A stretch of 64,000 nt of DNA from Xiphophorus maculatus (taxonomy: Eukaryota > Chordata > Actinopteri > Cyprinodontiformes > Poeciliidae). Of this stretch, positions 15,116 to 42,801 are shown one piece after another. Below the pieces are notes generated by a model. The model ran no database searches. It had not been told where the DNA came from and was given only the letters and a program-made list of their open reading frames with translations. The stretch lies in assembly GCF_002775205.1 (NCBI RefSeq), contig NC_036460.1:1494056-1558055 (forward strand), given 5' to 3'. How positions within the stretch are numbered: the first letter of the stretch is position 1; each line of letters opens with the position of its first letter. The translations under genes and the position numbers were made by a program.

Positions 15116-16017
15116 CTGGTCTGATTCCTTTCTGCCTCCCTGCTGCAGCGTCAACATGTCAAACTTTCCTCAAACGTCGGATGAAACGTCGCAGACTTTG
15201 ACTAAACATCCGTTAAAAACAGGAGATTTCATTTTCTGAGTTTTAAACTTTGAGTTTAACGTTTTAACTGTAAATGTAGCTTCTTCTAGCAGGTATTGAA
15301 ACGAAAAGTCTGTCAATGAAATCTATAAATACATATTCTATCTCCATGTAATTCCAAAATAAAAGCCTTTAAGCAGATTGTGAAAGGTCAGCATCTATAA
15401 AACATCATCTATTGACAGTAAATAGCTTAGATTTTTCTTTAATTATGTTTCTGTTTCTCCTGGTTTGGTAATAAATTTAAAATAATTACTGGTTTTAAAC
15501 GGATCCAGGATTGAGTCTGCAGACAATTCCACAGATTTATTCTTTTATAAAATAATCTGCCGGTGAAACTAGAACTTTTTCATCAAATTTAAAGAATTAT
15601 TCACTTACAACAACTTTCTATGTTGCTGAAAAGTTATACGTTACTTTTGCCTTATTTCCAGTGTAATAAGACATTTGCACTAGAAATCAAACGTAAATAT
15701 TTGGTCAAATGTTGTGTTTTTACAGTGCAGATGCACCTGCACATATTTTATTTCTTGTGAAGTTCATGTTTTTGGGCTGTTAGAAGGTGAAGTTTCGTTT
15801 GTCGGTCAGTAAATCTGATTGTGATCAGATCTGTGATGGGTGATCAATGAGCCTGTGAGGAACATGGAGGACGGCGTGGCGCGTGTTCCCACCACCTTCA
15901 CGCTCAGAAAACACCGAGGCGTTTCACTGAGCGGAACAATGCAGCTGATTTGGTTCTGGAGAATGAGGATATGAAGTGTTTTTGAGTGCAGCGTCACCCG
16001 CCCTCCTCTGGTGGAGA

Positions 16018-16080
16018 TATAAACGGTCCGCCGTGGCGTCGGATCAGAACTCCCTCAACGCTGCGCTGAATCATCCGAAG
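16018..16080 (+). promoter_or_regulatory. TATA box and probable non-coding first exon of the VWA7-like gene
   Basis: TATAAA at 16018-16023 is followed about 30 bases later by the probable transcription start. A short leader exon probably ends at 16080 (AAG, then GTTTGA donor). The next acceptor, TTCCTCAG ending at 16861, opens the exon holding the start codon at 16935. Inferred from spacing and splice-site fit. Confidence 0.55.
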
Positions 16081-16934
16081 GTTTGAAGATGCAAAACATT
16101 TCCTGGCTTTTTAAAAACATTTTGCATATAAGAGATTTTTAAATTACATTCATTGGTATTTAGTTTAGTTTGTTTAGATCTGTTTAATTTTCCTGTAACA
16201 TTTTATTTGATCACACTGCAAAAACTAAATCTGATCAAGTTTTTCTGGTCTGGTTTCTACGGCAAATGTTGCAGTGCGCCTTAATTAAGACAGAATGACC
16301 TTAAAGTAACTTTTCAGCAAGACACAGGAGCTTTTACAAAGTAAGTAATAATTGATATTGATGAAAAAGTGGCAGATAAGTTTAATTATAACATGACAAA
16401 AATGTTTTCTTATAAACGAATTTATCTGCCAAAAGAACCGGAACGTTTTCATCAATGATCAAGAATTATTGGCTCCAAACGAGTTTCTGTCTCGCTGATC
16501 AGTTGCTGTCCAGTTATTTTGTCAGATATTTGCAGTAGAAACTTGATCAGATTTTGTGTTTTTGCGTCAGAAACATGAAGGAGTTTTTGTGACTGTGGTA
16601 AACGATGACATTTTTAAAGTGTCATTATTTACCAAATGACAACAGTTAGTCACACAGTTCTGATCATTTTCCTTAAAGTTCATTTTCTTTGTGATTATCT
16701 GATAATAATCGGACTTATCTTTTGCTTCACTTCCATGTTTTCATCAGAGACTCAGTCGGTTTGGGAACATTGATTTTTTAGCAGCTGTTTGTTGGCAGAT
16801 TTTAACTGTAAATATTCAGCGTTTAAATAAGAGCCTGAAGTGAAACTCTGTTGTTCCTCAGATCCAAACTGCATCCAGTTCTGCAGCAGCTGGAACAGAT
16901 CACGTTTGACGCCTGCGGTCCTTGCAGCTCCACC

Positions 16935-19900
16935 ATGGCAGTCGGAGCCTCTCTTCGCCTCCTGGCAGCGTTGATTCTCACCCTCCCAGGTTTCGCTCAG
17001 AGCTTCATGCCGAACTCCTTCTTCTCCTGGACGCTGAGTCATCGTGACATCACCCAGATCGCGATTCTGAGGAAAACAGCCGAGGTTTGCCGGGACGTTG
17101 CTGCTGCAGAGGGCAGAAGCTTCACTTTGGAGGTGACTGACCTGGAAGTGGTCTTCTTCTGCTCAAACATCCTCAACATGATCTGAGTTTCACTTTTGCC
17201 CCCAGATAACCGACACACTGTCGGTTAACAAAGTCCAAACGGCCTGCTCTGTCCCGCTGCCCGGCTTCCCCGTCTCCAGCGAGATGCTCCAAGCTGCAAT
17301 CAACAGCGTTCATGACAGCAGCGACGCCCTGCGGTCACCGGACCCGGCCTTCCACTTCCACAGCGAGGCCTTCCTCACCGGCAGGGACCTCATCACTCAA
17401 GGTAGAACTGCAGCACAGAGTTAATCAGAGAAATGAGAATCATCAAATTCAGAAATAAGGGTTGGAAATATTTCAGTGTAAGTCATCTTTGTTATTAACG
17501 GTGTGAAAGAAGCAACGATAAATGCTCATATTGAGGCAGACAGAACTGCAGCTGCTTCATTGACAAACTTGATCCAGTTTGTGACGCCAAATGGCTTCAG
17601 TGATGTTGCATCTGTTCTACTTCTTTCCTTTAGTTTTTCATGAATCTTTTGTCGATCTCTCAGGATTGTCGTCTCTAAAAGCTTCTGTGAAGGAGCAAAA
17701 CTTTCAGGCAGCCAGAAACACTCTTGGAAGAATCTGTCACACCCTCCAGGTGAGGCTCCTCTTTCTTTGGAACCAAGATACTTTAAAAAAAGATTGTTAT
17801 TTATTGTTAATTGTTAATATTTCTATTTGTTTTTTATCTTTAGGACTTTTACAGCCACAGTAACTGGGTGGAGTTGGGAAGAACCGCAGCTTACAGCGCT
17901 CTGATCAGACCAGATCAGCCTCTGGAGAACCTGGCAGGTAAAACGCTGCAGGGAATCTAAAGCAACAGACATGGAGGTTTAACAAATCTTCAATTAAAGT
18001 AAAGAACATGATAAATAACCAGCTTTCTGAACGCATCAGGTCCTGATGTTCCAACCTGTAAGAGCTGTGCTGGGCTGAGCTGCAAAGACAACATACTGCC
18101 TGCAGTCCTGGAGCAGGGACTTCTCACCTCAGGCTACTACAGCACCGAGTCTCCAGCAAAACCTGCAGGTAGAAACTTTAATTCCTCTGGAGAAAAACCA
18201 GATCCTTCTGTTTAGTGTCCAGAGGGGTAGGACTGCACCTACCCTGAATATTTCCAAATATTATGACTGTAAGGGGCATAACTGAGACGTGGAGTGGAAG
18301 AAACACACACACATACACACACACACACACGAATACACACACACACACATATTTGTCCCGTTGTCCGAGTTGACCCTCATTTCCTGCTGGTGGTGATCAT
18401 TTGACTGATGGTCGCCTCGTTTCACCAGATTCTCCGTGACTCTTGCTGATCTGAATCTATGTGTATTTTTAAAGGTAAGTGCAGCCACGGTGGTGTCTAT
18501 GACCAGACGAGCAGAACCGAGCCGACCGGCGGCATCAACAAGGACACAAACTCGTCTTCTCACGGGCAGCTGCACCGAACAGCGGCGGACCTGGCCGTGG
18601 ACGCCACAGTGGACCTGTTGGAGGACATTAGAGTCGCTATCGGAGACAGAACATTCCTGAGGTAGGAAACGCAGCGAAGCCTGCTGAGTCCCAGTGTCCA
18701 CATGAGAAACCTGACTGGTTCCTGTGTCCCCACAGACTGATGGACATCTCACAAGCACCTGCGCTGGTTTTTGTGGTGGACACTACGGGCAGTATGGGTG
18801 ATGACATAACTTATGTCCAAACAGTCACAGCTACAATCATAAATGAAAGAAGAGGAACACCGATGGAGCCCTTCGAATACATTTTGGTCCCTTTCAATGA
18901 TACAGGTATCCAACCAGCAGAAGAAAAATAACCATTTTAATTTATTCCCAGGTTCATGACACCCTTTATTAAATCAATTTCTCTTAGGTGTAATACAGAT
19001 AGCTCAAAATTAAATTACATTTTTGGGTACTGGTGAGTGGACCGGTACCGGGCTGATTCTGAGCCTTCAATTTCTTTAACTTATATGTTGTGAAAATAAT
19101 GTTTGTTTCAGCCACATAAATGATCATGCACAGCAACAAACAGCTACATCACTACAGCTTAGAGCAGCTCATTGAAATATTAATTAGCCTGATCTAAAAA
19201 CATTTCACTAGATCAAACCCTGAGAAGTTTTAACTAATGTTATCAAACGTTATGAAGCCAAAAACCCTCAAACATTTAGGACCAAGAATCAACTTATTTC
19301 AAGTTAAAACTCAGTTTCACACATCAAGCTATCAGCTATCAAGCTAATTTTCTATTAGCAGCTCCACTCATATTTTTTTATAACATAACATTACCAAGAT
19401 ACATTTAAAAACATTTACCTTGGCTTTTTCTATTCTTCCTCTTTGTTTTCTCTGTCCTTTTGGGACATTGTTTTGCTAATTTGGAGGTTTGGATGCGATC
19501 TGCACGTTGCACGGCAGTTCAGACCACCGGCCACTAGGGGGACCCCAAGAGCAATTTGTTTTTTCTTTTAGCCCGCTTAAAGAATGATTTCTACATGATC
19601 AAATATATATTATTGTAAATGTTAAAGTCACAATTTTATAATGAAATTATGTTTCTGTTAATGTAATCACAGAAATGATTACTAAAAACATAAATAAATC
19701 AGCTCCATTTTGGGGAGTTCACAGTTCTACCTCCTCTGCAGAATTTGGTCCAGTGATGAGGACAACGGATGCAGATGAAATGATGACCAAGATAAACAGC
19801 CTGACTCCCAGTGGAGGTGCAGACGGCCTGAAGATGAGCTTGTCTGGACTGAGAGTGAGTCGACACTGGATTTGAACAAACTCCATCAAAATCATCCCAC

Positions 19901-22900
19901 AACCTAAATGCACACGGATCCAAAATGTTTCCACTCAGCCCAACAGTGAAGTTCCCCTTTTTACTGGTCTGTCTGGTTCCGACCTGTGAGGCCTGGATCA
20001 CCATCAAATCAACGAGATTTGATCCTTGGTAGTGATGTGTGGATTGATACTTTCATTACTTGAGTCACTTAAGATAATAAATCTTAGCAAGAACTCGTTA
20101 GAAAACAATTGAATTATTGAGATCTTTCCTAATAAGAGAATCTTTACGAAGGCAGGAGAAGTTCTGGAAAATGAAACAGATGAAGGGAAAACAGTAAATA
20201 TCACGTCTTTTATTGACAGAAGCTGATTTTGAATTTTTTTTTTTTTTAATCTTCTTTATTTTATTTTTTGCTATTTAAATGAATTATTGACATTTTCGTC
20301 TTTAAAATACCAAATTTTCACTTATACTTTGGTCCATCTGATGGTGTAATTTTTAAATATTTATGATAATTGGATCAGTTACTCAGTATTTGAGTAACTG
20401 ATCCAATTAAGAAAATTAATACTTTTCTTACTTTTACTTGAGTGAAAGTTTGTGCTGCTGCCAGTGGACTGTAATATTTTGTAATCTGCTTCTCCTGTAA
20501 AGAACGATTCTTGTTTTCTCTGACAGCTTGCCCTGACAGCAGCTCCTCCTTCTTCCTTTATTGTTTTGTTCACTGATGCTGAAGCCAAAGACGCGTCTCT
20601 GAAAAATGCTGTGACCGCTCTGATAGAAACCACGAAGTCGAAGGTAAAATACAGATGAGGCCTAATGGGCCTTATGAACTTTATTTGCATTATTTTCCAG
20701 TTTTCCAGTTCCTACAACTCTTAAGCAAGTTTATTGTTTAATGTAAGATAAGTTCTGCTATTTGTGTTGTAATACTTATGTGAATTTGTTGTTTAAGTTT
20801 TATTGAAATTTAAACCAAATTGGCATAATTATCAAAATTACTTAATGCAGAAAAAGTATTGAGATATTTTTTTTGTCCATATCACCCAGCTCTACCTGAA
20901 CCTGTTCAGGTGTTAGCTACTGTTGCTAACCGTTGCGTAGCAACAGCAGCTAATACCTGGCAGTGAGTCTTTAACGTCTCAGTGGAGGAAATTGATCCGT
21001 AATCCAGACTGATAGATCTCAGTTTGAGATCAGGAAATGATTTGTTTCTTTCTTTCTGCTTCATTTTGTTGAAAATCCACACATTACTTATGGATGGTGT
21101 TTATTAATCTTTCTCTTCTTCCAGGTCTTTCCCATCTTGACCTATTTTAATGCCAGACGACGCAAAAGAACTGTAACTGTAGGTTCTTCCGAGCGGCTGG
21201 ATCTGGATCTGGATCTGGCCCAGGCGTCTGGAGGTCTGGCCATTGAAATCAGCAAGTCCCAGATTTCTGCAGCAACTCCTATTATAGAGCAATTTTCAGT
21301 CGGAGCCGTGGTGAGACTCTGAGTATGGACCTTGGATATGGAGAAACGAACAAGTCTCCATGTCGTTTGCAGCTTTGTTTTTCACCGGCGCAGCAGCTTT
21401 CCTTCCTGTTCTCCTCCAGGTCACCGTTCTCCATGCGGCGGTGGATCCCGGCACGCCGAGAAATTTGACCTTCCTCGTTGACACGACTCTGAGCTACATG
21501 CAGATTTACATCACAGGAGACTCATCTCTCACCTTCACACTGACAAGCTCAACAGGTTCAGTTCAATACAATCTGCTTTTAACCTAGTATGGCTCCACCT
21601 GTCGGTGGCCTGTTGTAACAACACAAAGTCTTACCAAGTGTTTTTATCTTTATTTGAAGGGATGTGCATCTCTGCCAGAGCTGGGTACTAACTAGTTACA
21701 TTTACTGGAAAAATGTACTTTTAGGAGAAATTTTACTGTGCTGTGCTTTTTACTTTTTCTTCAGTAATTTTATTCTGAAGTATTTCTTCTCATACTTCAG
21801 TAAAATTTCTGGATTTTCTTCCCACTGCATGAAAACAAACATGTTTTAACCAAAAATCCACCAGACAGACTCACACATGCAGTTTCTGTTCAAGTTTTTT
21901 ATTGAAAGAAACTGATTCAGAAAAATGTTCTTATCCTGATTTTGTCATTTTGTAATTATGATATTTATGACTCCTTTTGGTCTTTCTGGTACTGATGGTG
22001 TAACTTTTACATATTAAATGATTGATTGATCTTAACTTTCATGAAGATTCCTTCATGTTCAGGTGTTATCAGTCTTCAGGCCTTCTAATAAAGTGTTACC
22101 AAAATATCTTAGCACACTTGAAATAAGAGAGAACTAAATTACAACAAACATTTGTAGGCAGTACTGACTTATTCACTTCTTTTGCTTATTCAATTAACAT
22201 TTATTGTAACTTCCAGGAGTTTCTCAGAGCTCCAGTGAGTCCAGCGGCTCCCTGGCATCGATTTCTACAGCAGGAAACCTGTGGGTGTTAAGGCTGAACC
22301 CTGAGAACCAGGCAGGGCAGTGGGCGATCGCGCTCAACGCCACCACCGCCTACACAGTCAAGGTCACAGGTGAAGAAAGAAAGGTCTGCTCAGAGGCTTT
22401 AAATCTTTATTTTTTCCAAATCTGAGATTTATTTTCTTTTTGTGTGAATGCATTAGGTCGGAGTTCCTTGAACTTTGTCTACAACCTCGTTGAACCACAA
22501 GAGGGCACCAACGGCAGCGTCATTCCCAAGGAAGGACGTCCCTCCACAGGTCAGAACCCAAAATATCACAATATTAACCATCCTGAAGAGACTCAGTCTC
22601 TGTTCTTAGACATTAACGCTCCTGAATTTTGTTTTTATGATTTGTTCAAACAACCCGAAAAATAAATTGAAAACTAGATGCTGCCATGTTGTGTGTTTGT
22701 TAACTGGATCCAGATCAGCTGAGGCAGCGAGTTGATCTGAAGATTTAATTAATAAAAAAAACCTGGAAGCACAGGGAGCCAGAGGAGAACAAAACACATC
22801 AGGAACAAACAAAAGCAGAAGGATCATGACGGGGGAACAGGATTAAACAGGAGGAACTGAGAAAGAGTTTTATTCGTCCTGGGGAGATTTGTTACCAAAC

Positions 22901-25900
22901 AAGGAAACAGACGGCTGATTGGAAACGGGGTCAGGGGTCAGGAGAGAGAGAGAGAAAGTGGCACAGGGGGCGAGGGACTAAAGAATAACTAGACCTAAGA
23001 AACATAATTAAACTGGAGTAATATAGAATAACTAGATACAAGGAATAAATGTAGTAAACTAGAATCAATACACCGTGTTCCAAATTATTATGCAAATTGG
23101 ATTCAAGTGTCAGAAAGATAAAATTTTTTGTTGTGCTATTACATTTATAGATGATATTGTGTGTCAGAGCTCTTTGAATCACTATAATTAATTTCAGAGA
23201 GCTGGTTGATTAGTTTGTCTGCTGAGCTCAATTAAAGGAAATCTACTTCAGAAGGATGTTCCACATTATTAAGCAGGCCACAGGTTTCAAGCAATATGGG
23301 AAAGAGAAAGAATCTCTGCTGAGGGAAACCATCAGATAGTTTAGTGCCGTATGACAAGATATGAAAACTTCAGTTATTTAACAAAAACTGAAGCGTTTAT
23401 CGTACTGTGAAGAGATTTGTGGCTGATTCAGAACAAAGATGGTTTTACAGATGAAGGCAGAATGAGGAAAGTTTCTGTTGGACACATTCATGGGATTAAG
23501 ACAGCAGCTACTGTTAACATGTAACTGGGTCTGTTAAGATGTTTTTGATTGAAATAGCTTTTGATTTTAGTACATGTGAACACTTAATGCTGCACATTCA
23601 AAGAATGACCATGTGCAGTTCTTTATAATCCATAAAATGTTTAGAAAATCTGCTGGGCATAATAATTTGGAACACGTTGTAAGGAAGAGCTGAACTAAAG
23701 TAAAACAGAAACAAGAAGAACTGATCAAATAAAAAGAAATTATGGAAAATAAAATAATAAATAAACCTCAAAACATCTCAGGATCCTAACAGACATCAAA
23801 CATTCAAACTCTTCCAATCTTCAGATCTACAGTGAATAACATCTCTCTCCTACGAAACAAAAAACAATCAGATGACTTTATTTGTTGTATTTCAGTTTGG
23901 ACTCCTCCGTCCTGAACTGTCTCAGTGACTCCGTCTCTTCTCTGATCTTTAGGTGATAAGGTCACTCTGTGGGTCACCGTCACAGGAAGTGACACAGCCA
24001 CAGTCAGAGACGTCTCTCTGTTCGACTTCTCCAGATCAACACAACTCAGTGGATCAGTCCAGGTATGCAACGTTCGCTTTGTAGAGCAATTCACTTCTTC
24101 AAGAGATTAACTCTAGATTAGGACCCAACTCTTTTCTGTAAAATCACAGAAATTAAATATCAATTTAGCAGGAAATAGTCTCAATCTGGAATGCCTCAAG
24201 TAGGTAAATCTGGTGAAATTACAGAAGAGGATTAAAGCGGCGGAAAAAAATTTATTCTGACTTTTTTCTCAAAATTCTGGGGATCTCAGCAGAATAGTCT
24301 GATTTCTGAGAAAAAAGTAACAATTATGAGATTAACGTGAGATTTTTTTTCTTTTCAGTGGCTCTAATTCTCTAACATATAAGACACACAAAGCATAGTA
24401 AAAAAGATAATACTGTGTCTAAATAATATAGTTTTTAATGCATAATTTGGTGGAAACACTGAATAGATTTGGATGAGGAACCAAGTTTTTGTGTTTTGTT
24501 TTTTGGACAGTCGATAGGAAACGGCGACTATCTGGTGGCGTTCAGTGAAGTCCCGGCAGGGAGCTTCCTGCTTCAGCTGACAGGGCAGGAGACGAACTCC
24601 ACCTCCGCACCAACCAGCTTCCAGAGACAGGCTTCCACCCAGATCACAACCTCCAGTCTCTCTGTTACCGTCAGTACCCTTTCTGTTCACTCCGGTCTGC
24701 AAGGTGTGTCCACCACTGTGAAATATACACGAAGGGACAAACACCATGGTTATCTGAAGGATACACTACCTGTAGGGAGGTTTTCTCAAATTGTGGTTTC
24801 CAAACAACTGGTGGTCCGTGGGCGTCCCCTAGTGGTCCGTGAGATACTGCATGTAAACAACCGAGCTCAAAGTGCAACGCTACAGTTAGCTTACCAAAGT
24901 ACTGTGTTTAAAAATAGTAATGGATTAATGGCTTAAGACTGGGTCACTAAAATGGATGGATCACCCATCAAAGCGATCACCCATCGCAGGTAGCGATGAG
25001 TGACCCATCCGTACCTGCGATGAGTGACCCATCCGTACCTGCGATGAGTGACCCCACCTCTCGGCCGCTGACATCTGGAGAGGCACCAGCACCCCTCATG
25101 ACCCCAGTGGGATAAGGGTGTAAGAAAAAGAAAGAATGGATGGATGGATGGATGGATGGTTGGTTGGATGGTTGGTTTTATGGATGGATGAATGGATGGA
25201 TGGATGGATGGATGGATGGATGGATGGATGGATGGATGGATGGATGGATGGATGGATGGATGGATGGATGGATGGATGGATGTTGGGCTACCTACTGGCT
25301 GAAAGAAAATGTCTGTTTTTGACAACTCTACTCACGTCTATTTTTCTTTTATTATGCTTCTAAATTACAAATATCCCTAAAATGTTTTTAGTGCACACAA
25401 CACTGAGAGCTTTTCCATGTGTTTTAAGATAAGATAGATAAGATAAATCTTTATTGTCATTGTCACAAGGACAACAAAATTCAAAGGGTGCCATCAGTCG
25501 GTGCACATGCCCAAAGACAAAAAATAACTGTCTCACAATTCACACACAATTCACTCATTTCTGTCAGTGGAAAGCTTAGAATCTTTACTCAGAACCTCTC
25601 ATGGTTTTATTGTGGCCAGTCACACTTGTTAGTCGAGCTTTAGGCACATTGCCCTGGAAAAAAGGTTTGGTTTGGTTTAGTTACTTTTTTAGTATATTTC
25701 CTAAAAGATAAAACAAAATAACACATACTGTATGTGCACATACATAGTTTTATTCTGGAGTTTTATAAAATGGACAATATTGACCTGACTTCAGATGTGA
25801 TTTGATTAAGTTAATTACTATGTTGAATCAGTGTTTGATCACGACTTTAGAATTGAATTGAATTGAATTTGAATGAAATCAGTCCTTTTATTGGTCGAAT

Positions 25901-28778
25901 TGATTACTGTGGTTACCTCAACAAAAGATGATTCAAGTTACCATTTTTAACCAGAATTACTCCATCAATTTAAAACCAAACATTTTTTTCTTGTCCTTTA
26001 TACCAGGCTCAAGCTGACAGCCTGAGCATCGAACCAGGCTCCAGCGTCTCCGTATCTTTCACCGTAACCTCAGAGGAAACTGGGACATTCACCATACAAG
26101 CCAACAATGACCGCGACTTTGGCACCGCATGGAGTACCTCGGTGAGCATCGGCACAGGTGATGGCGGTCAAGCTAATGGCACAGTGACCTTAGCAACTCC
26201 AGCTGATGCTGCTTCAGGAACAGATGTTTCCCTCACTATTGTTGCCGAGAACGCTGATGGTACTGAAATCAACTACGTTGTGCTCAGGTTTTCAATAGCT
26301 ACCAAGGTGAGATATGACACAGCTGGGCATGTTCAGAAATCAGATACTTGCATCTGATTTCTGAACACAACATCTTGTTGTGTTGAACACAACAAGATGG
26401 AGGGTTATAAGTTTTTAAAATAATTTTCCTTAACCTCGTTTACCTCCTTCTCTGTCCAGGTGACTGACCTGTCTGCTCCAGTGTGCCAGGTAGTCAGAAT
26501 GTCAGGTGTTTGTCCGGCCTCTCCTCTCTTCTGTGCATCTGTCCACTGGGAGCTTGTTGTTAATTTCACAGATGGAATCAGTGGGACTGGAATTGAAACC
26601 ATTTCTCTACGCCAAGGGAATGGTACTTTGAATACCAGCAATGTGGTTGAAGTAGGGGGGGAGAATATAACAGTAGTTTCTTACAGCTCCACCTGCTGTT
26701 CACAGAGTGTACAGCTAGCTGCTGTGGACAGAGTGGGAAATGTGGGCACATGTACAAAAACCACTATAGCCCTTACTACACTTGCCCCAAGTAGCACACC
26801 TTCACTTGCGACCAACATCAGTCATATAACCACAACCATTCCTGTGCTCAACAGCACCTCTGCTTCTACACCAATGCTTATCGCCGAGAACATGGCAGTA
26901 GTCCCACTAATGGCTGAGAACATGGCAGTAGTCCCAAAGATGGCTGGGACCAACAACACTCCTGTGACTACACCAATGCTTGCGACCAACACAACTCCTG
27001 AGACTACACCAATGCTCATGACCAACACAACTCCTGAGACTACACCAATGCTCATGACCAACACCACTCCTGAGACTACACCAATGCTCATGACCAACAC
27101 AACTCCTGAGACTACACCAATGCTCATGACCAACACAACTCCTGAGACTACACCAATGCTTGCGACCAACACAACTCCAGAGACTACACCAATGCTTGCG
27201 ACCAACACAACTCCTGAGACTACACCAATGCTCATGACCAACACAACTCCTGAGACTACACCAATGCTCATGACCAACACCACTCCTGAGACTACACCAA
27301 TGCTCATGACCAACACAACTCCTGAGACTACACCAATGCTCATGACCAACACAACTCCTGAGACTACACCAATGCTTGCGACCAACACAACTCCAGAGAC
27401 TACACCAATGCTTGCGACCAACACAACTCCTGAGACTACACCAATGCTCATGACCAACACCACTCCTGAGACTACACCAATGCTCATGACCAACACCACT
27501 CCTGAGACTACACCAATGCTCATGACCAACACAACTCCTGAGACTACACCAATGCTTGCAACCAACACAACTCCTGTGACTACACCAATGCTTGTGACCA
27601 ACACAACTCCTGAGACTACACCAATGCTTGCGACCAACACAACTCCTGAGACTACACCAATGCTCATGACCAACACAACTCCTGAGACTACACCAATGCT
27701 CATGACCAACACAACTCCTGTGACTACACCAATGCTTGTGACCAACACAACTCCTGAGACTACACCAATGCTTGCGACCAACACAACTCCTGAGACTACA
27801 CCAATGCTTGCGACCAACACAACTCCTGAGACTACACCAATGCTCATGACCAACACCACTCCTGAGACTACACCAATGCTCATGACCAACACCACTCCTG
27901 AGACTACACCAATGCTCATGACCAACACAACTCCTGAGACTACACCAATGCTTGCAACCAACACAACTCCTGTGACTACACCAATGCTTGTGACCAACAC
28001 AACTCCTGAGACTACACCAATGCTTGCGACCAACACAACTCCTGAGACTACACCAATGCTCATGACCAACACCACTCCTGAGACTACCCCAATGCTCATG
28101 ACCAACACAACTCCTGAGACTACACCAATGCTCATGACCAACACAACTCCTGAGACTACACCAATGCTCATGACCAACACAACTCCTGAGACTACACCAA
28201 TGCTCATGACCAACACAACTCCTGAGACTACACCAATGCTCATGACCAACACAACTCCTGAGACTACACCAATGCTCATGACCAACACAACTCCTGAGAC
28301 TACACCAATGCTCATGACCAACACAACTCCTGAGACTACACCAATGCTCATGACCAACACAACTCCTGAGACTACACCAATGCTCATGACCAACACAACT
28401 CCTGAGACTACACCAATGCTCATGACCAACACAACTCCTGAGACTACACCAATGCTCATGACCAACACAACTCCTGAGACTACACCAATGCTTGCAACCA
28501 ACACAACTCCTGAGACTACACCAATGCTTGCAACCAACACAACTCCTGAGACTACACCAATGCTTGCAACCAACACAACTCCTGAGACTCCAAATGTCCC
28601 TCACAATTCAACTCCTGCCCAAACTACAAACAGCTCTGTTGTCACTACAGTTTTTGAAACTGCAGGTACAACTATCTCAACATCCACTGGAGGGGAACCT
28701 GTATGCTTGTCCTTTTCTCTGTGCATTGCAACTATGATTTGTTCAATCCGAGTATTATTGTTCAATGAGGCAAATTGA
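16935..28778 (+). CDS. vwa7: VWA7-like protein with a C-terminal mucin-like tandem-repeat domain
   Basis: Seventeen coding exons: 16935-17132, 17206-17401, 17634-17749, 17844-17937, 18040-18168, 18475-18661, 18736-18905, 19742-19854, 20527-20643, 21125-21310, 21420-21555, 22217-22369, 22457-22549, 23953-24062, 24511-24669, 26007-26306, 26460-28778. Phases agree throughout and give about 1591 aa. Human VWA7 shares [12 protein letters not shown], the GKCSHGG...GGINKD block and the VWA metal-site motif DTTGSM (here about residues 322-327). Residues 1-23 look like a signal peptide. Later exons show beta-rich domains. Residues 983-1522 are 45 copies of a 12-residue unit of the type [12 protein letters not shown], each with an NTT sequon. 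The last 29 residues contain a hydrophobic stretch ([14 protein letters not shown]), so a membrane or GPI anchor is possible. Function is poorly known; it is probably a glycosylated cell-surface or secreted protein. Teleosts have several VWA7-like paralogues, so one-to-one orthology is not proven. Confidence 0.88.
18305..18350. repeat. Imperfect (CA)n microsatellite in VWA7-like intron 5
   Basis: CA runs interrupted by TA and GAATA. No other feature is seen here. Confidence 0.85.
20025..20450 (+). repeat. AT-rich interspersed repeat, copy 4, with internal hairpin
   Basis: Contains GGTCCATCTGATGGTGTAA and TTTTACTTGAGTGAAAG landmarks of the family. It includes a perfect 18-bp inverted repeat (20368-20385 with 20391-20408, 5-base loop). 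It lies in intron 8 of the VWA7-like gene. Confidence 0.55.
21675..22060 (+). repeat. AT-rich interspersed repeat, copy 5
   Basis: Begins with AGAGCTGGGTACTAACTAGT, a known start of this fish repeat type. It then shows ACTTTTAGGAG, TTCTGAAGTATTTCTTC, CCACTGCATGAAAAC and the ATGGTGTAACTTTTACATATT region. It lies in intron 11 of the VWA7-like gene. Confidence 0.6.
23069..23681 (+). mobile_element. Non-autonomous Tc1/mariner element, 609 bp
   Basis: Terminal inverted repeats begin CACCGTGTTCCAAATTATT on the left and CAACGTGTTCCAAATTATT on the right, matching at 22 of 23 bases. They are flanked by a TA duplication (23069-23070 and 23680-23681). Inside, 23215-23520 resembles the 5' part of a Tc1/mariner transposase gene (helix-turn-helix region), while the catalytic part is absent. 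It is an internally deleted relict in intron 13 of the VWA7-like gene. Confidence 0.85.
24985..25055 (+). repeat. Short tandem repeat of about 24 bp, three copies
   Basis: Three near-identical units of GCGATGAGTGACCCATCCGT type, directly before the LINE-type tail. Confidence 0.8.
25056..25282 (+). mobile_element. LINE/SINE 3' tail with a (TGGA)n microsatellite
   Basis: The text CTCTCGGCCGCTGACATCTG followed by GGCACCAGCACCCCTCATGA and GGGATAAGGGTGTAAGAA is the common 3' end of a fish retroposon. It finishes in about 145 bases of TGGA repeat (25137-25282). The 5' part is missing. It lies in intron 15 of the VWA7-like gene. The exact family was not assigned. Confidence 0.7.
25425..25525 (+). 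repeat. Interspersed repeat fragment (CTTTATTGTCATTGTCACAA type)
   Basis: Contains AATCTTTATTGTCATTGTCA and ACAACAAAATTCAAAG, a sequence block I recognise as widely dispersed in teleost genomes. It is probably a retroposon 3' end; family not assigned. Confidence 0.5.
26949..28568 (+). repeat. Coding 36-bp minisatellite, 45 units
   Basis: 1620 bases make exactly 45 units of 36 bp in frame within the last exon of the VWA7-like gene; a degenerate 46th follows. Units vary mainly at the last codon (ATG, GCG, GCA, GTG) and at one GAG/GTG codon. A GTG-bearing variant block recurs near 27570, 27720 and 27970, pointing to duplication of multi-unit blocks. About twelve near-identical units at 28090-28480 point to recent homogenisation. 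Confidence 0.97.
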
Positions 28779-30064
28779 AATGTATGTAATTGACTTGATT
28801 GTGTCTCTATAATGGGATTAAATTGACTAAATATTTGTAGTGAATCAGCTCTATATTAATTTAATGAATTGAATTGATTTTTGTCTGGGAGTAAATAATT
28901 TGAGCAAATTTTAATTGTAGTTTATCAAGCACTGTTAAAATTGCATGTAATTTGTATTATTTTAGCTTCTGTTTAATATGCCTGTCTTTTTTGTTTGAGA
29001 GGTGGAGGGGGAATTCATGCAAGAACTGTTAAAGTGATTCTGTCAACTAAATAAATGAATATACTTACAATTGAGACTTGTCTTATTGAATCTTATTGTA
29101 GCCAATATGCACTGCCCTGCATTAATAAATGCATTATGACCAAAAATCTGCCTCCTATTCTACTTATAGAATAGGATAAAGGCCAACATTTTTACAAGTA
29201 ACTAGTAATCATGATGGACTGGCCTCTTAAAATGGTCTTGACCTTTGAGACCACATGGCATGGTTTTATATTAGTTTTTTCTACATTTTGTGTATGACTT
29301 TAACTGCATGTGTAATTTTATTTTAGGTTTTATTGACTACCTTTTCTGTTTTATGTATTTTATTTTCCCACATTTTTACATGTTGTACTTTGGTCCAACA
29401 TCATAATTTTGTGGACTGTATGACTGAAGCTTGATTGGATCAGATTGGAGTTTTATTTTTGCATGACTGGAAAATAAATAGAAAATGGCAAAAAATAAGG
29501 CTGGGCTGAGCCCCCTGTACTGCATAGTGTTAGGAACGGCCCTGGATAAAACCTGAAAACTATTAATGTTAAAGTTTTAGTTCCCAACTCTAATGTTGTG
29601 CATTAGTGCAGTGTTTCCCAACCCTGGTCCTCAAGGCACACATCCCATTCAGATGACTACAATTCAGCAAAACCCTGCTGGTCAGCCATCAATTGCAATT
29701 TGTGTGCTGAAGCAGGGATTGCCTAAAACATGCATGGCAGTGTGCCTTGAGGACCACTGTTGAAAAACACTGCGTTAGTGTGTGTGTGTGTGTGTGTCCT
29801 ATTCACACACACGCGCCTTAGGGTGTGCGCGCGCGTGTGTGTGTGTGGTTAAAAACTCTTCCTGGTTCTGCTCTTATCTTGTTGCCTTCACTTTGACTTT
29901 ATCGTTTGAGCTCCTCCATGTTCAAACATCGTCATGCTAACTAGTTTTGTTAACCAGTTCCCCTCCTGAGGCTCAGACTGCTGGTTAGTTCTAGTTAATA
30001 ACATTAACTAGTTGCTAAGTTAGCCAAGGCTGACTGTTAGCGGTGGCTCTCCTGTCTCCAACAG
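28779..30064 (+). other. VWA7-like 3' UTR, intergenic DNA and probable rffl leader exon
   Basis: AATAAA at 29050-29055 is the best poly(A) signal for the VWA7-like gene. A miniature transposon sits at 29601-29780, followed by CA/GT-rich sequence around 29780-29850. A GTAAGC donor after CAACAG (exon end 30064) is a plausible end of a non-coding rffl exon 1. Confidence 0.5.
29601..29780 (+). mobile_element. hAT-like miniature element, 164 bp
   Basis: Element 29609-29772 begins CAGTGTTTCCCAACCCTGG and ends with the diverged inverted counterpart GGACCACTGTTGAAAAACAC plus TG. It is flanked by an 8-bp target duplication with one mismatch (cattagtg / cgttagtg). Non-coding. Confidence 0.8.
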
Positions 30065-31381: not shown

Positions 31382-33997
31382 ATGTTTGCCTGCTGCTGTA
31401 ACTGGCTCTGCCTGGACTCCACGGATGTGGACCCGTCAGGCCGAGCTGACAGGAGACACCAGTCCTACACCAACTCAGCCTTCAACTCCCAGCCGTCTCC
31501 GCCTCCACCTGAGCACACCTGTAAGGCGTGCGGCGGCTCCTTCGACACACCTGCCAGGAAGGTAACTCCGCCCCCATCAGTTTCAGTCTGGAAACTCCCG
31601 AACCTCATGGACTCTCAATTCAGGAGCCGATCTGATGAGTTCAGGAGCCGATCTGATGAGTTCAGGAGCCGATCTGATGAGTTCAGGAGCCGATCTGATG
31701 AGTTTGGTTAAACAGACAGATTAAAGTTAGAAATGCAGGAAGTTCAGTCTGTTGTTCCAGCTGGTAAATGTCCTCTGTCTAAAGAGATGGAGGACAGAAA
31801 GTGTAACATGAAACTGAAGTTTAGTTGAAGTCAAACTGTGAAACGTTTCAGGTGAAATGGCGCCCTCTGGTGGAGCAGCCTCGGTTTGACAGTTCTGATT
31901 TTGCTGATTTTTTATGTTAAACTGGAAACTGAGTCTCCTGCCGTCCACTTATGTCTCCACCTGTCTCCACCTGTCTCTACCTGACCCGCAGCATGTGTGT
32001 GTTGACTGTAAGAAGAACTACTGCAGCGGCTGCTCCGCCCAGCAGGGGCTGCGGCCGCGCCTCTGCCACACCTGTCAGCGTTTCTATGGCAACCTGCTGG
32101 AGCGGGCGGAGCTGATGAAGCTGAAGGTGAAGGAGCTGAGGGACTACCTGCACCTACATGAGGTCTCCACCCACTTGTGCAGAGAGAAGGTGACGTGTCG
32201 TCGTGGTTTCAGCAGCAGCCAATCAGAGAGCGGCTGCAGGTGTTGTGGACGTGTTGGTTCCCTCCAGTTAAACCACTGCTTCATGTCCCCCAGGAGGAGC
32301 TGGTGGAGCTGGTGCTGAGTCAGCAGTCGTCGCCTTCCGGCAGCTCCGCCCCCGACACCCCCACCATGACCTCTGACCCTCCTGACCCGACGCCTCGCAT
32401 CTCCGTCTCTGATTCGTCCTCTGACGCATCAAGTCCGGCCCCGCCCACTCCGGAGCCTGAAGCTCCGCCCCCAGACTCAGAGACTCCGCCTTCTGATGCT
32501 GAGCTGGAGGAGGATGACCCGGTAAGTTCCATAGAAGAGATCTGGACGTCCGACCCGGTTTGGTTGACCGACCCTGTTCGGCTGACCGACCCGTGTCTTC
32601 CAGGCCTGGGACCCGGAGGAGGCGCCCGTGTCGGGGCGACGGGCCTCGCTGTCGGACCTGAAGAGCGTGGACGACATCGAGGACCTGAGCGTCCGGCAGC
32701 TGAAGGAGATTCTGGCCCGGAACTTTGTGGATTACAAAGGCTGCTGTGAGAAGTGGGAGCTGATGGAGCGCGTGACCCGGCTGTACCAGGACCAGCAGAA
32801 CCTGCTGGGTGAGGATAACCCAACAAGTTTCACCGTGTTTGCAGGAACCCATCAGAACATCTGGGTTCTAATGGTTCTGATCCAGTCAGACCAGTATCAG
32901 TTCTGGTTCTGTTCCAAACTGAGCAGGAAGTGTTTGATTGGTGATCTGCAGTGGTGGGCACACTTATGCTAACCCTCAGGTAGCAGAGCTAATGTTAGCT
33001 TAGCAATTAGCTAATTGTTAGCTCCTAAAATAATATTTCTGGATGAAAGCTAAGAATTAGCTCCGTAATAAAGGCGGAGCTAATTCCATTTTTGCTACCT
33101 TTAGAATTATTTCGAGCACTTTACTTCCTCTAAATTAATTTTTCCAGATAAATTCTAAAGCTCTAATTTTCTTGGCTTTTTGGTAAACTTTCAGTTGAAT
33201 AAAGTTCAACATCTGTTTTGAAATTTTTATTGACTGTTAAAAATTCTTCAAGCAGCTAATCTTTTATATTCCTGCTCTTATTTTGAAGCGGATAAAAACT
33301 GTTTATATAGTTTCTCTCTTATTTTCCCCCAATAACTTTTTGTATATCAAGAAACATATAGTAACAAAATAAAACGGACAGTAGAGAACAAGATATAAAT
33401 ATTATATGTAAGGGCATTACAGGACGTGTAAATTATAATGTCAAAATTAAAGTGCAGCTTGAGTGTTGTTGTCTGTCGATGGCAGTTAATTTGAATTCAA
33501 GTTTGAATTCAAATTAATTTGAATTAAGCTTTAGCATTAGCTTTCACTAAATTAGCTTCTGCTAACCACTGTGTTGGTAGAGTGATTTAGCATTAGCTTC
33601 TGCTAATTACCATGTAAGTCGAGCGCATCATCGTTAGCAGAGCTAATGTTTTTGGGGATCGCTGAATCCCATTGGCTGCTTCTCTGATGATGTCACTGTT
33701 TTTCTGTTTCAGCGGCTAACTCTGTGAACGCTGCAGGTGAGTGTGGTTCTGTGGGTCCGGTGGGACTGCTGCATGGTTCCGTGTCTGACGCTGTCCGGTC
33801 CTCCTGCAGGTGGCGGCGGCGGGCCGGCGCCAGGCCAGGAGGAGAACCTCTGTAAGATCTGCATGGACTCGCCCATCGACTGCGTCCTGCTGGAGTGCGG
33901 TCACATGGTCACCTGCACCAAGTGCGGCAAGCGGATGAGCGAGTGTCCCATCTGCCGGCAGTACGTGATCCGGGCCGTGCACGTCTTCCGGTCCTGA
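31382..33997 (+). CDS. rffl: E3 ubiquitin-protein ligase rififylin
   Basis: Six coding exons: 31382-31561, 31992-32189, 32294-32521, 32604-32808, 33713-33736 and 33810-33997, giving 340 aa (human 363). RFFL is an endosome/plasma-membrane-associated RING ligase that ubiquitinates targets such as p53, RIPK1 and misfolded CFTR. The N-terminus [12 protein letters not shown] matches the cysteine-rich RFFL start, which is thought to be palmitoylated, rather than RNF34. A FYVE-like zinc finger uses C47/C50/C63/C66/C71/C74/C85/C88. A SAP-like segment ([20 protein letters not shown]) follows, then an acidic Pro/Ser linker, a second motif ([13 protein letters not shown]) and a C-terminal RING at 293-340 ending [10 protein letters not shown]. 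Exon 5 is a 24-nt microexon. The start is preceded directly by an acceptor (CAG at 31378-31380), so the 5' UTR is split. Confidence 0.95.
31620..31703 (+). repeat. 21-bp tandem repeat, four copies, in rffl
   Basis: Four identical copies of TCAGGAGCCGATCTGATGAG plus T lie in the intron after the first coding exon. The unit has no stop in one frame, but the tract lies beyond a good donor (GTAACT at 31562). Confidence 0.95.
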
Positions 33998-36929: not shown

Positions 36930-39900
36930 ATGGACCACACCCTGATGGTGCTCCTGCTGTGGCTCTGCAGTTCAGGTAACTGATCAAACAATGTTTGGCT
37001 CAGTTAAATAAAATCATGCAAGCAATTACTAACAAACTGTCATCCAAAGTTCAGCCTCTGTCTGCAGCTGCACTGATAAAACCTGAGATGAGCCTTCAGT
37101 TGTTGCTGGGAACTAATGAGATGTGTTGAGCTGACATGTACTGAGATAAGAGAGATTAGTGAACAGTAAAGGAAAATCTCACTGTGGTTCAGATCCTGAT
37201 CCTCTCATCTCTGATTCTCCTTCCTGACATTTGTCCCAGATGTTCATGCAGATGAAACCCACAGCCTGAAAGGTTTGTTCAGTTCTAGACTTTGGTTCAA
37301 AATGAAACTTAGTTTGTTAAACAGTAAAATGATGAATCCTCTGTCTGGTTTCTGTCCAGAGTCCATCAGGTTGATGGAAGGATCCAGACGCTGTGAAGGT
37401 CAATGGCAGTTGAATCTGGGAGAATGGAAACCAGTTTACATCGAATATTTTTCTTATGACCTGAAAGAAGCTTCAATCATCTGAAGACAGCTGGACTGTG
37501 GCGCACCTGTTTCAGCTACAGTACATCAGCCGTTAATATTAATCGATGTATGGACGATCACCTCAGAGTGTCTTCTGTCTGGATCTGATCTCAAGGACTG
37601 TGCACAAAAAGGAGAAACATTTGGTTCTACATGGTTCACCTGCATAGGTAAATCTGTCACAAACATCAAACATTTCCTCACTGGTGAGTTTGACTGAGAT
37701 GCTGAGCTATGTGAAGACTGCATCTGGGTTTCAGTTTCATCATTTAACCTTTGTTAAATGTAAAGAATCAAATCTCCTGACAAGTCAAATAAATGAGTAA
37801 ACTAAAACTTCTCTTAGAGTTTTCAGAGGTTCTAAATCCATCAAACGAGATGTGACTAGTTAATGTGACTAGTTAATGTGAACAGTTAATATGACCAGTT
37901 AATGTCACCAGTTAATGTGACCAGTTAATGTGACTAGTTAATATGACCAGTTAATATGACCAGTTAATGTGACCAGTTAATATGACCAGTTAATCTGACC
38001 AGTTAATGTGACCAGTTAATATGACCAGTTAATGTGACCAGTTAATATGACCAGTTAATGTGACCAGTTAATGTGACCAGTTAATGTGACTAGTTAATGT
38101 GAACAGTTAATATGACCAGTTAATATGACCAGTTAATGTGACCAGTTAATGTGACTAGTTAATGTGACTAGTTAATATGACCAGTTAATGTGACCAGTTA
38201 ATGTGACCAGTTAATATGACCAGTTAATGTGACTAGTTAATGTGAACAGTTAATATGACCAGTTAATATGACCAGTTAATGTGACCAGTTAATGTGACTA
38301 GTTAATGTGACTAGTTAATATGACCAGTTAATGTGACCAGTTAATGTGACCAGTTAATATGACCAGTTAATGTGACCAGTTAATGTGACCAGTTAATGTG
38401 ACCAGTTCATGTGACCAGTTAATGTGACTAGTTAATGTGACTAGTTAATATGACCAGTTAATGTGACCAGTTAATGTGACCAGTTAATGTGACCAGTTAA
38501 TGTGACCAGTTAATATGACCAGTTAATGTGACTAGTTAATGTGACTAGTTAATATGACCAGTTAATGTGACTAGTTTATATGACCAGTTAATATGACCAG
38601 TTAATGTGACCAGTTAATATGACCAGTTAATGTGACCAGTTAATCTGACCAGTTAATGTGACTAGTTAATATGACCAGTTAATGTGACCAGTTAATATGA
38701 CCAGTTAATGTGACTAGTTAATATGACCAGTTAATATGACCAGTTAATGTGACCAGTTAATATGACCAGTTAATATGACCAGTTAATGTGACCAGTTAAT
38801 GTGACCAGTTAATATGACCAGTTAATGTGACCAGTTAATATGACCAGTTAATGTGACTAATTAATGTGACCAGTTAATATGACCAGTTAATGTGACCAGT
38901 TAATATGACCAGTTAATGTGACCAGTTAATGTGACTAGTTAATATGACCAGTTAATGTGACCAGTTAATATGACCAGTTAATGTGACTAGTTAATATGAC
39001 CAGTTAATATGACCAGTTAATATGACCAGTTAATGTGACCAGTTAATGTGACCAGTTAATATGACCAGTTAATGTGACCAGTTAATATGACCAGTTAATG
39101 TGACTAGTTAATGTGACCAGTTAATATGACCAGTTAATGTGACTAGTTAATATGACCAGTTAATATGACCAGTTAATGTGACTAATTAATGTGACCAGTT
39201 AATATGACCAGTTAATATGACCAGTTAATGTGACCAGTTAATGTGACCAGTTAATGTGACCAGTTAATGTGACTAGTTAATATGACCAGTTAATATGACC
39301 AGTTAATGTGACCAGTTAATGTGACTAGTTAATGTGACCAGTTAATGTGACCAGTTAATATGACCAGTTAATATGACCAGTTAATGTGACCAGTTAATGT
39401 GACCAGTTAATATGACCAGTTAATGTGACTAATTAATGTGACCAGTTAATGTGACCAGTTAATATGACCAGTTAATATGACCAGTTAATGTGATCAGTTA
39501 ATGTGACCAGTTAATATGACCAGTTAATGTGACTAATTAATGTGACCAGTTAATGTGACCAGTTAATATGACCAGTTAATATGACCAGTTAATGTGACTA
39601 GTTAATATGACCAGTTAATGTGACCAGTTAATATGACCAGTTAATGTGACCAGTTAATGTGACTAGTTCATATGACCAGTTAATATGACCAGTCAATATG
39701 ACCAGTCAATGTGACCAGTTAATATGACCAGTTAATATGACCAGTTAATGTGATCAGTTAATGTGACCAGTTAATATGACCAGTTAATGTGACTAATTAA
39801 TGTGACCAGTTAATGTGACCAGTTAATATGACCAGTTAATATGACCAGTTAATGTGACCAGTTAATATGACCAGTTAATGTGACCAGTTAATGTGACTAG

Positions 39901-42801
39901 TTCATATGACCAGTTAATATGACCAGTTAATGTGACCAGTTAATGTGACCAGTCAATATGACCAGTCAATGTGACCAGTTAATGTGACCAGTTAATATGA
40001 CCAGTTAATGTGACCAGTTAATATGACCAGTTCTTCTTGTCTTGTTTTAACCTCAGAAGTGATGACATCACTTTTACTTCTTCACACTCCTGTGTGTTTC
40101 CTCCTGTCAGGTTGGTGATGTTTGTTGTTAGCTAAGAACTTGTTCCAAAGTCCTGGTAGGGATGGACGATATGACATTTCATATCGGTCAATATGGATAA
40201 TTATTGATTTGTTTTTTGATTTTAAAACTCCGAAATACTACCAAACACTTCCTGTGACATTTCCTGCTTCCTCCACAGGTTTTTCTCCATGCTGTTTTTT
40301 TATTTTCAAGCAGTAATGAGGCGCAGTGGTGAAACCTGAAACTGCTGCTGCGCAAGTTACTCAATACATTGTTGCTAGATAAACAGAAGTTACTCAACAT
40401 GTTGTTACTAGATAACCAGAGTGAGGGAGTTAGTTGATTTCAGCAGTCTAGCTTAGCTAACTGTGAGATGTTGATCAACTAAAGTCTTTCTTCTGCCTAC
40501 ATTCCCCAGAATGCTGTGCGATTCTGGATCAGAGTTCAGTGAAATTATTGAATATTCTATCAGACATATTATTTATTGACATTGATCATGTACCCACCTC
40601 GATATACTGTATATTGTCATTGATTTATAGTCCAGCTCTAAGTCCTGGTCCATATGATCTCCAATTATATAAAGTTTGCATAATTTTCTAAAGCTAATCC
40701 CTCATGATGATATTCCAAAAATTCACCAGTAGTGTGGTTTGTTTGGCATGTTGTGTAGTGCCATACCTCCTACAAAGATAATGTGAGTGCAGTGTTGGAA
40801 ACCCACCACAGCCACATAGAGAACAAGAACTGAACTGCACACAAAGAACCAAGCAGACCAGTAGGGAACTGGGAATCCTTGAATTGTTACCATTAACCAA
40901 TGGGCATCATGTGCTCCTATGAAGGAGGTATTTTCACAAAGTTGGGGAGTCCCTGTGATGTCAAAGGTTAAGGTCCATTCACTTCCAGAAAAACTGTAGC
41001 ACTGGAGTTCAGGGCGATGGGATGGAATAGGGTTTGAGGTCAAGGGATTTGGGTTTTGCCTTGATGGAACAGTGAATCTCTGGGTACTGGGTTTTGCTTG
41101 GCTGGCCCGGGTTCTCCCTGACTGCTGCCGCTTCATGGACCACTACTCTGTCTGGGTTCCCTGGGGTTCCTCAGGGGCTCTGTGGATCTCTTGGAGTTCC
41201 CTGGACTTGGTCAGCACAGTAATGGTCTGCAGAAACCGTTCATGCACAACATTGTGGATAAAATATTTTCTTTGTCTCTGCAGAGTCTGTGAAATTGGTG
41301 AATGGGGGAGATGACTGTTCAGGCAGACTGGAGGTGAAGGTCTCCCAGTCTGACCAGTCAAACCAGAGCTGGTCTTCAGTTTGTGAAGCTGACTTTGACC
41401 ACCAGGATGCAGAGGTGTTGTGTAGGGAGATTAACTGTGGGTCTCCTACAGTCCTAAAGGGAGGGCTCTATGGAGAGGTGGAGGCTCCAACATGGACGCC
41501 ACAGTTCCAGTGTGAAGGAAATGAGTCTTCTCTCCTGGACTGTAGAAGGTCCAACTCAGCCAGAAACTCCTGCTCACCTGGAAAAGCTGTTGGACTCACC
41601 TGCTCAGGTAGAGGAGGAGCCACAGATATGATAATTTCTGCTCCATGTTTTGCTGATGACTTTCTGCTTTCTCTTTAGAACCATTGAGGTTGGTGGGGGG
41701 ACCCAGGCGTTGTGAAGGTAGACTCCAGATAAGACAAGAGGGAGAATGGCGACTAGTGCATTTTAGTGGGCCCTATTATTGGGACCACAACCACCCAGAG
41801 ATTTTCTGTAAATGGCTGAGCTGTGGCTCTGCTGTTTCCATGGAAGAAAACACCGAGTCATTAAAGCAAGAAATGTCTTGGATCAGTGCTGGATGCATTG
41901 AGCAAGTACCTTCTGTCAGGTACTGTGGGTTTCATTCATCATATTCAGCTGTAACCATCAAAATCAACTGTTTAGGTGAGTCCAACAGTAACACTTCTTC
42001 TCTAACTGGGTCACAAGTTCTGCTGAGTAACATGAAAGTAAACATGAAGGATGAAAACTTATCTGGAGTCAGAAACATGTTAGGCTGCTTGAGGAACATA
42101 ACAGGTTCCTCAAACAGCCTTTTAAGGTTCGCTTTAATTTTCCTTCATGTCCAGACGAGTTTGGAAAAATGTTGGAATTTCCAAACTTCCATTTCCTAAA
42201 GAACAACAGTCTGTCAATGCTAAATAAACCAGTGGTTGCTTTTGCTTCAGATTTGATAAATTTCACATCAATCAATCAATCAATCAATCAAATTTATTTG
42301 TATAGCACATTTCAGCAGTCCAAAGTTCTTTAAATCATAAAAATACAAAAATACAAAGTCATAACGGGTTAATTCTGCTCGTCCAGCCAACAATCTCCCT
42401 CTGCTTTGTGTTTCCAGAACCAGACAGAACCACAGATGGGAACCTTCGTCTCACAGGTCTCATATGCAGAGGAGAAGATCTGACCCAGAGTGAAGTGAAT
42501 TAGCTGAACTCACCTGCTAGCTGACTTGTTCTCCTGAAGACTGTCTGATTCTGATTCACTTTCAGTTTTTACAACAGTTTTTATCTTCTGTCTGGTTCTC
42601 CTGCTGCTGAGCGTCACCTTCTTCATCTTCGCTCTTTGTTTTACCTACAAGGTACTCCTCGCTGCAGAGCTCCTGCACATGTTGAGCTGTAGAAACCCCG
42701 CAGTGCTGCCATGTCTCCGCAGCCCAGCAGGTGGCAGCAGTCAGGACAGTGAGCTGAAGATGCAGCAACGATCGATGATGGAGATGTTCTCTTCACCCTG
42801 A
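36930..42801 (+). CDS. SRCR-domain type I membrane receptor with an in-frame TGA
   Basis: Seven coding exons: 36930-36975, 37240-37272, 37360-37647, 41284-41607, 41679-41975, 42418-42456, 42566-42801 (420 codons if TGA is read through). Seen here: signal peptide (MDHTLMVLLLWLCSS), a short linker, three SRCR domains each on one phase 1-1 exon, a Thr-rich stem, a transmembrane helix (TVFIFCLVLLLLSVTFFIF) and a short tail. SRCR2 has eight cysteines (group B); SRCR3 has six. In SRCR1, residue 68, normally Cys in the motif CRQLDCG, is TGA (37482-37484); the rest of the domain stays open. The domain count resembles CD5/CD6, but I cannot assign orthology. It may be a pseudogene, a truncated allele, or a gene that skips exon 3 without losing frame. 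The tail might instead be spliced at 42652. Confidence 0.75.
37851..40032. repeat. 13-bp minisatellite of about 2.2 kb
   Basis: About 168 copies of TGTGACCAGTTAA occur in the third intron of the SRCR gene. Two positions vary: TGTGAC or TATGAC, and CCAG or CTAG. Rarer variants are gttcat, gtcaat and actaatt. Ordered strings of variants recur, showing higher-order duplication. No coding role is seen. Confidence 0.98.
40156..40640. repeat. Possible miniature element in SRCR intron
   Basis: The left part (GGGATGGACGATATGACATT) and right part (CGATATACTGTATATTGTCA) resemble the two ends of a dispersed fish element. The terminal repeats are diverged and no clear target duplication was found. Confidence 0.35.
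42264..42360 (+). repeat. Retroposon 3'-end fragment (ATCA)n TTTATTTGTATAGCACA type
   Basis: (ATCA)n followed by AAATTTATTTGTATAGCACA, TTTCAGCAGTCCAAAGTTC and TTTAAATCAT. It is the same block as at 51937-52060, oriented alike. It is common in teleosts; I could not decide whether the parent is a LINE or a SINE. Confidence 0.55.

Follow-up and report, generated by a model that had tools for sequence, protein, structure and literature searches.

In GPIb-alpha, a ligand-binding head is borne above the membrane by a mucin-like segment with few VNTR copies, and the fish antifreeze glycoproteins consist of short Ala/Thr repeats. Mucin function has been gained through coding VNTRs rich in Pro, Thr, and Ser, a process called mucinization (Pajic et al. 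2022, as presented in the review PMC12776774), and the same review describes the birth of mucin-like domains for mammalian mucin genes. For GPIb-alpha, a reference title in PMC1660532 names a 13-residue VNTR in the mucin-like macroglycopeptide, and a passage of that review states that the repeat polymorphism had no known link to how the receptor is expressed or functions. On the function of VWA7, little was found in the literature. It is counted with the cell-adhesion genes that overlap QTLs in a study of disease resistance in turbot (PMC11659141) and with the genes that a cnidarian upregulates in an antiviral response (PMC13319465). The literature search returned no paper joining VWA7 with tandem repeats and none joining it with GPI anchors, and, judged by title, none of the papers found on VWA7 and zebrafish was about a repeat.

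The stretch of DNA analyzed here, referred to as the window, comprises 64,000 nt of Xiphophorus maculatus NC_036460.1 (C18:1494056-1558055) in a genome assembled as 704 Mb in 101 contigs. It contains a VWA7-family gene with a 45-unit minisatellite that is probably coding, and we favor, with some confidence, the reading that the product is an anchored surface protein with an O-glycosylated mucin-like spacer whose array turns over by copying blocks of units. The closest described systems are similar only in part. As in mucinization, a Thr/Pro-rich coding tandem repeat appears to have been added to a nonmucin protein, and recurrently so, but the receiving protein is of the VWA7 type, has its slot ahead of a hydrophobic tail, and is not a proline-rich protein, and the repeat has no serine, carries PML in each unit, and is only putatively glycosylated. 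The likeness to VWA7 lies in the domain order, the strong matches over residues 73 to 807, and the paralogs in the same genome, and the difference lies in a 540-residue repeat domain before the tail; four of six paralogs are without a repeat, L040 has 29 units of another kind, and L039 has three. The likeness to GPIb-alpha is a mucin-like segment built of repeats and presumably variable in length, but in an unrelated protein and with an unrelated unit. The antifreeze glycoproteins have O-glycosylated repeats grown in fish genes (PMC12776774), but these serve ice binding, and the ancestral function was lost.

Gene model and domain content

A 17-exon model on the forward strand (16935-28778), with boundaries chosen by hand and AG/GT at each internal boundary, gave an open frame for a 1581-aa protein. 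Exon 1 (16935-17132) contains the start codon and a signal-peptide-like stretch, residues 1 to 21 being the second hydrophobic maximum of the protein. Exons 2 to 16, which span 17206-26306, code for the VWA7_N, VWA, hemicentin-type galactose-binding-like, and VWA7 Ig-like domains. These exons lie at 17206-17401, 17664-17749, 17844-17937, 18040-18168, and 18475-18661 (exons 2 to 6), at 18736-18905, 19742-19854, 20527-20643, 21125-21310, and 21420-21555 (exons 7 to 11), and at 22217-22369, 22457-22549, 23953-24062, 24511-24669, and 26007-26306 (exons 12 to 16). The last coding exon, exon 17 (26460-28778; 773 codons including the stop), is in phase 0 with exon 16 and begins at residue 810, and the repeat begins at residue 973. 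A candidate poly(A) signal, AATAAA, follows at 29050-29055, with others at 29124 and 29473.

The VWA7-like identity proposed in a preliminary description of this DNA was borne out by four Pfam matches, each far above its cutoff and all within residues 73 to 807: VWA7_N (PF25107; E 1.4e-81, 273.7 bits versus a cutoff of 27.5), VWA_4 (PF25106; E 4.2e-52), GBD_Hemicentin (PF23560; E 1.1e-28), and Ig_VWA7 (PF23619; E 1.9e-18). The model intron at 26307-26459 agrees with the intron coordinates given there, and the repeat, described as being in frame within the last exon, is so in the open 17-exon model. Exon 17 as a whole matched no Pfam family up to E 0.01. It starts with a Cys-rich domain (26460-26790) that is kept in the paralogs, aligns with five of them, and showed 39 to 45% identity in the genome search; a sequence search of this domain against PDB gave no match up to E = 1, and its best NCBIfam match (E 0.0058) was below the family cutoff. 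Nothing reached the gathering score of Rfam over 16000-30000, and the inverted repeats in the last exon amounted to one 12-nt pair.

Other features were seen around the gene. Intron 13 of the model appears to contain, at about 23070-23680, a transposon-like piece whose ends are, by eye, inverted copies of each other. A piece of a neighboring RNF34/RFFL-type gene lies at 31908-32318, and a perfect 21-bp repeat (31619-31704; 4.1 copies, open frame FRSRSDE) is found just upstream of it.

Structure and history of the 36-bp array

Tandem Repeats Finder reported the array at 26948-28589 (period 36, 45.6 copies, 95% matches, 0% indels, score 2801). Together with in-frame cutting, this confirmed the 45 in-frame units at 26949-28568 on the forward strand that had been noticed before; they are free of indels and code for 540 residues in 12-residue units with M, A, or V at the last position. 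A degenerate, half-decayed 46th unit that diverges in its last part follows at 28569-28604. The 45 units fall into 8 DNA types coding for four peptide versions (28, 13, 3, and 1 units, respectively), and their order is GAABACFAABACFABBDECAAECCABBDECAHAAAAAAAAAADDD.

The recurrence of variants in blocks and the near-identical run of about 12 units, both claimed in the preliminary description, were found in this order. The block AABACFA occurs at units 2 to 8 and again at 8 to 14, and the block ABBDEC occurs at units 14 to 19 and again at 25 to 30; a repeated block of at least 7 units with at least 3 unit types was rarer among shuffled unit orders (53 of 5000). Units 31 to 42 are 12 nearly identical copies, of which the 10 at 33 to 42 are identical, and a run of at least 10 was seen in 14 of 5000 unit shuffles. 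Such a pattern is the expected outcome when blocks are duplicated by unequal exchange or slippage. The array would grow and shrink by copying blocks of units, and with a unit length divisible by three such changes keep the reading frame. The arrangement of variant units in blocks also speaks against a unit number distorted by the assembly through collapse or overextension. Tandem arrays are error-prone in this respect, but 704 Mb in 101 contigs suggests long reads able to span 1.6 kb, and we regard such a distortion as very unlikely.

The upstream edge of the array is old and decayed, with at least two older units that the preliminary description did not mention. A gapped local alignment of 26796-26922 (forward strand) to the 36-bp unit scored 35, compared to a shuffle maximum of 21 (n = 300). 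In an ungapped comparison, two decayed units (about 26811-26882) were clear, with 25 and 23 of 36 bases alike, and past them there was a weaker trace; the rest of the stretch had 15 to 18 of 36 bases alike, and the parts adjoining the clean array had 15 to 17, in a comparison made without a control. The repeat between the decayed units and the clean array, at 26886-26946, is a different one with a 30-bp unit. Downstream of unit 46, a trace of the 36-bp unit was weak (score 12), with 13 of 300 shuffles equally good.

Coding status of the array

An open frame through the array is weak evidence for coding, because with a period of 36 bp any frame that lacks a stop stays open throughout. On the reverse strand, two frames through the array are open as well (592 and 566 aa), and this argument was therefore discarded. 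So was the absence of indels, since a control array in the same window is equally regular. This array (37850-40032) has about 168 copies of the 13-bp unit ATRTGACCAGTTA and lies about 9 kb from the 36-bp array; its period is not a multiple of three, and it was taken, by assumption, as noncoding. All of its 166 spacings were exactly 13 (167 copies, with up to 4 substitutions allowed). A test for an excess of synonymous changes inside the 36-bp array gave no significant result, with 4 of 9 mutation types synonymous (P = 0.17; approximate, with neighboring changes in one codon scored singly), and the same test in one reverse frame also gave 4 of 9 (P = 0.24).

Better evidence comes from what the frame connects: it runs from the paralog-conserved Cys-rich domain through the array and 57 unique codons into a hydrophobic tail that resembles the tail of the paralog L042. 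This bears on whether the array is instead a minisatellite in an intron or in the 3' untranslated region, with the real coding sequence ending or being spliced upstream of it. The cheapness of open frames through a 36-bp repeat, seen in the two reverse frames, is in favor of that explanation. However, the frame continues into a unique tail like that of L042 (3 of 1000 shuffles equally good), the paralogs show one frame from the same domain directly to a hydrophobic tail, and all but 4 of the 45 units, those of types E and G, lack the GT needed for an internal donor. A noncoding array is accordingly hard to credit.

Composition of the repeat and predicted modification

The 540 residues consist of 41.5% Thr and 16.7% Pro with no Ser (58.1% P+T+S), which is the composition of a mucin-like domain in the sense of a Pro/Thr/Ser-rich tandem-repeat domain. 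Every unit contains the hydrophobic PML(M/A/V), and a hydrophobic PML in the repeat unit is unusual for mucins. Amino acid changes among the 45 units avoid Thr and Pro, except for one Thr in unit 1.

Each unit had been described as offering one N-glycosylation sequon, and as glycan sites these do not hold up. All 45 sequons are directly followed by proline (44 NTTP and 1 NNTP), a context reported in PMC12818257 and PMC8804554 to abrogate core N-glycosylation. An N-glycan on each unit was thus rejected as a reading; 45 N-glycans on the array are unlikely, and the units would carry few or none. O-glycosylation is plausible from the Thr/Pro density, and a table in PMC3248387 places O-glycans usually close to proline. 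When the peptide of the 36-bp unit was inspected by eye, however, none of its Thr residues had Pro at position -1 or +3. These are the positions at which GalNAc-transferases favor Pro relative to Thr.

The unique part after the array (28605-28775, forward strand) is a Thr/Ser-rich linker followed by the hydrophobic C-terminal tail, a candidate GPI-anchor signal or membrane anchor. The tail is the hydropathy maximum of the whole protein, with 4 residues after the stretch. With the signal-like stretch at the N terminus, the protein would, as judged by hydropathy only, have the two parts of a membrane tether. Predicted in this way, the tail is most likely a GPI signal or a transmembrane segment; an arginine inside the hydrophobic stretch is unfavorable for GPI anchoring. 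The signal peptide would direct secretion of the protein, and this tail would keep it at the membrane.

Paralogs in the same genome

A genome search with the window protein added six VWA7-family genes to the one in the window, each with several matching exons, these counts being lower bounds. Four of them (L039 to L042) lie in a row on C11, L043 is on C5, and L044 is elsewhere on C18; a single-exon match to the VWA part on C12 (E 1.1e-4) was left out of the seven genes. In all seven, including the window gene, a hydrophobic tail followed by 0 to 5 residues closes the last exon, which in six begins with a clear match to the Cys-rich domain; in L044 this match is weak (E 3.6e-4). What lies between these parts differs. 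L041, L042, L043, and L044 have only short linkers without a repeat. L040 has, at L040:7108-7542, 29 units of 15 bp, mostly TTSNV/TTSPV, which code for 145 residues with 64.1% P+T+S, and L039 has 3 units of the same type. A long Thr-rich repeat between the last Cys-rich domain and the tail was found in 2 of 7 genes, the window gene and L040. The L040 stalk contains 17 sequons, none of which is followed by proline. N-glycans in disordered stalks, that of L040 included, are nevertheless disfavored, because N-glycosites are mostly in ordered regions according to PMC7142085.

L039 and L040 form a tandem duplication (C11 30887022-30899677 and 30908142-30921442). The three longest aligned blocks (1.6 to 7.0 kb) are 98.1 to 99.0% identical and the shorter ones 93.7 to 97.3%, with 94.2% in a 573-bp block just after the stalk; the Cys-rich domains of the two are identical. 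The pair thus represents 3 versus 29 units in tandem copies with a divergence of about 2%. Should the assembly wrongly have kept two alleles as separate loci, the numbers would be those of alleles, in which case the change from 3 to 29 units would be even faster.

The two genes with long repeats are, weakly, not sisters. In a tree of the Cys-rich domain (6 rows, 5 of them different, with L044 left out), no branch was starred, and the four C11 genes grouped at 94/94. The tails, again with L044 left out, were alike beyond shuffles in 3 of 10 pairs, namely window-L042, L039/40-L041, and L042-L043 (3, 4, and 18 of 1000 shuffles equally good, respectively); in the other seven pairs, at least 167 of 1000 shuffles were equally good.

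Two further repeats came up in the search. In the C5 gene, the region of the last exon is present twice in tandem (L043:7445-8408; 490-bp period, 2.0 copies, 99% match), so that there are two possible last exons. On C1, a 36-bp array that gave a weak match (L045:2672-3313; 17.8 copies) has a Gln/Pro-rich open frame, PTQVQSQPQTR(T/I). This array was rejected as a relative: the locus is unrelated to VWA7, and almost all units are interrupted by stops in the frame that matched.

Discussion

The last exon of the window gene has gained a 45-unit minisatellite, which would place 540 residues between the last Cys-rich domain and the hydrophobic C-terminal tail. In the mechanism we propose, these residues form a mucin-like spacer, extended and O-glycosylated, by which the VWA and galactose-binding-like domains are raised above the cell surface. 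By analogy with the mucin-like segment of GPIb-alpha, the repeats of the window gene and of L040 most likely both serve to space adhesion-type domains from a membrane tail. The basic role of the family does not require a long stalk, because 4 of 7 genes have no repeat and L039 has only 3 short units. In addition, GPIb-alpha as a model for length effects counts against this mechanism, its repeat polymorphism being without a known functional link (PMC1660532).

The four genes without a repeat and the 3 units of L039 also fit a repeat which is translated but neutral. It would then be a by-product of minisatellite growth that an unconstrained linker tolerates, and its role as a stalk would not be under selection. 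The synonymous test inside the array (4 of 9, P = 0.17) and the 13-bp array of about 168 copies, which means that long arrays form here outside the gene too, point in this direction as well. However, two genes have long Thr-rich repeats with different units in the same slot, both in frame and both ending before the tail, and the amino acid changes in the 45 units spare Thr and Pro apart from the one Thr in unit 1. Overall, we consider neutrality somewhat unlikely.

The best reading of these data is that mucin-like stalks have arisen repeatedly on a surface protein. In this slot, stalks were probably gained on two or more occasions, and its length changes fast. First, the two gains appear to be separate, because the units are of 36 and 15 bp, the peptides differ, and the two genes do not group together, though the tree support for this is weak. 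Second, the near-identical duplicates with 3 and 29 units suggest that the length of the slot changes quickly, and the 36-bp array may also differ in unit number between individuals. One genome and one family present several stages: no repeat (L041 to L044), 3 units (L039), 29 units (L040), and 45 units of an unrelated repeat (the window gene). L039 and L040, which are nearly identical apart from the stalk, offer a natural experiment on its length, and the sequon contrast between the window stalk and the L040 stalk leads to a clear prediction on glycan type. More tentatively, the slot may be a hot spot in this fish lineage, where stalks are born repeatedly from different seeds; one gene would have started from a 36-bp Thr/Pro unit whose N-sequons are dead, and the other from a 15-bp Thr/Ser unit whose N-sequons are potentially live. 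Length would then change fast, and stalk height and glycan type could be an evolving property of the family that is exposed to selection.
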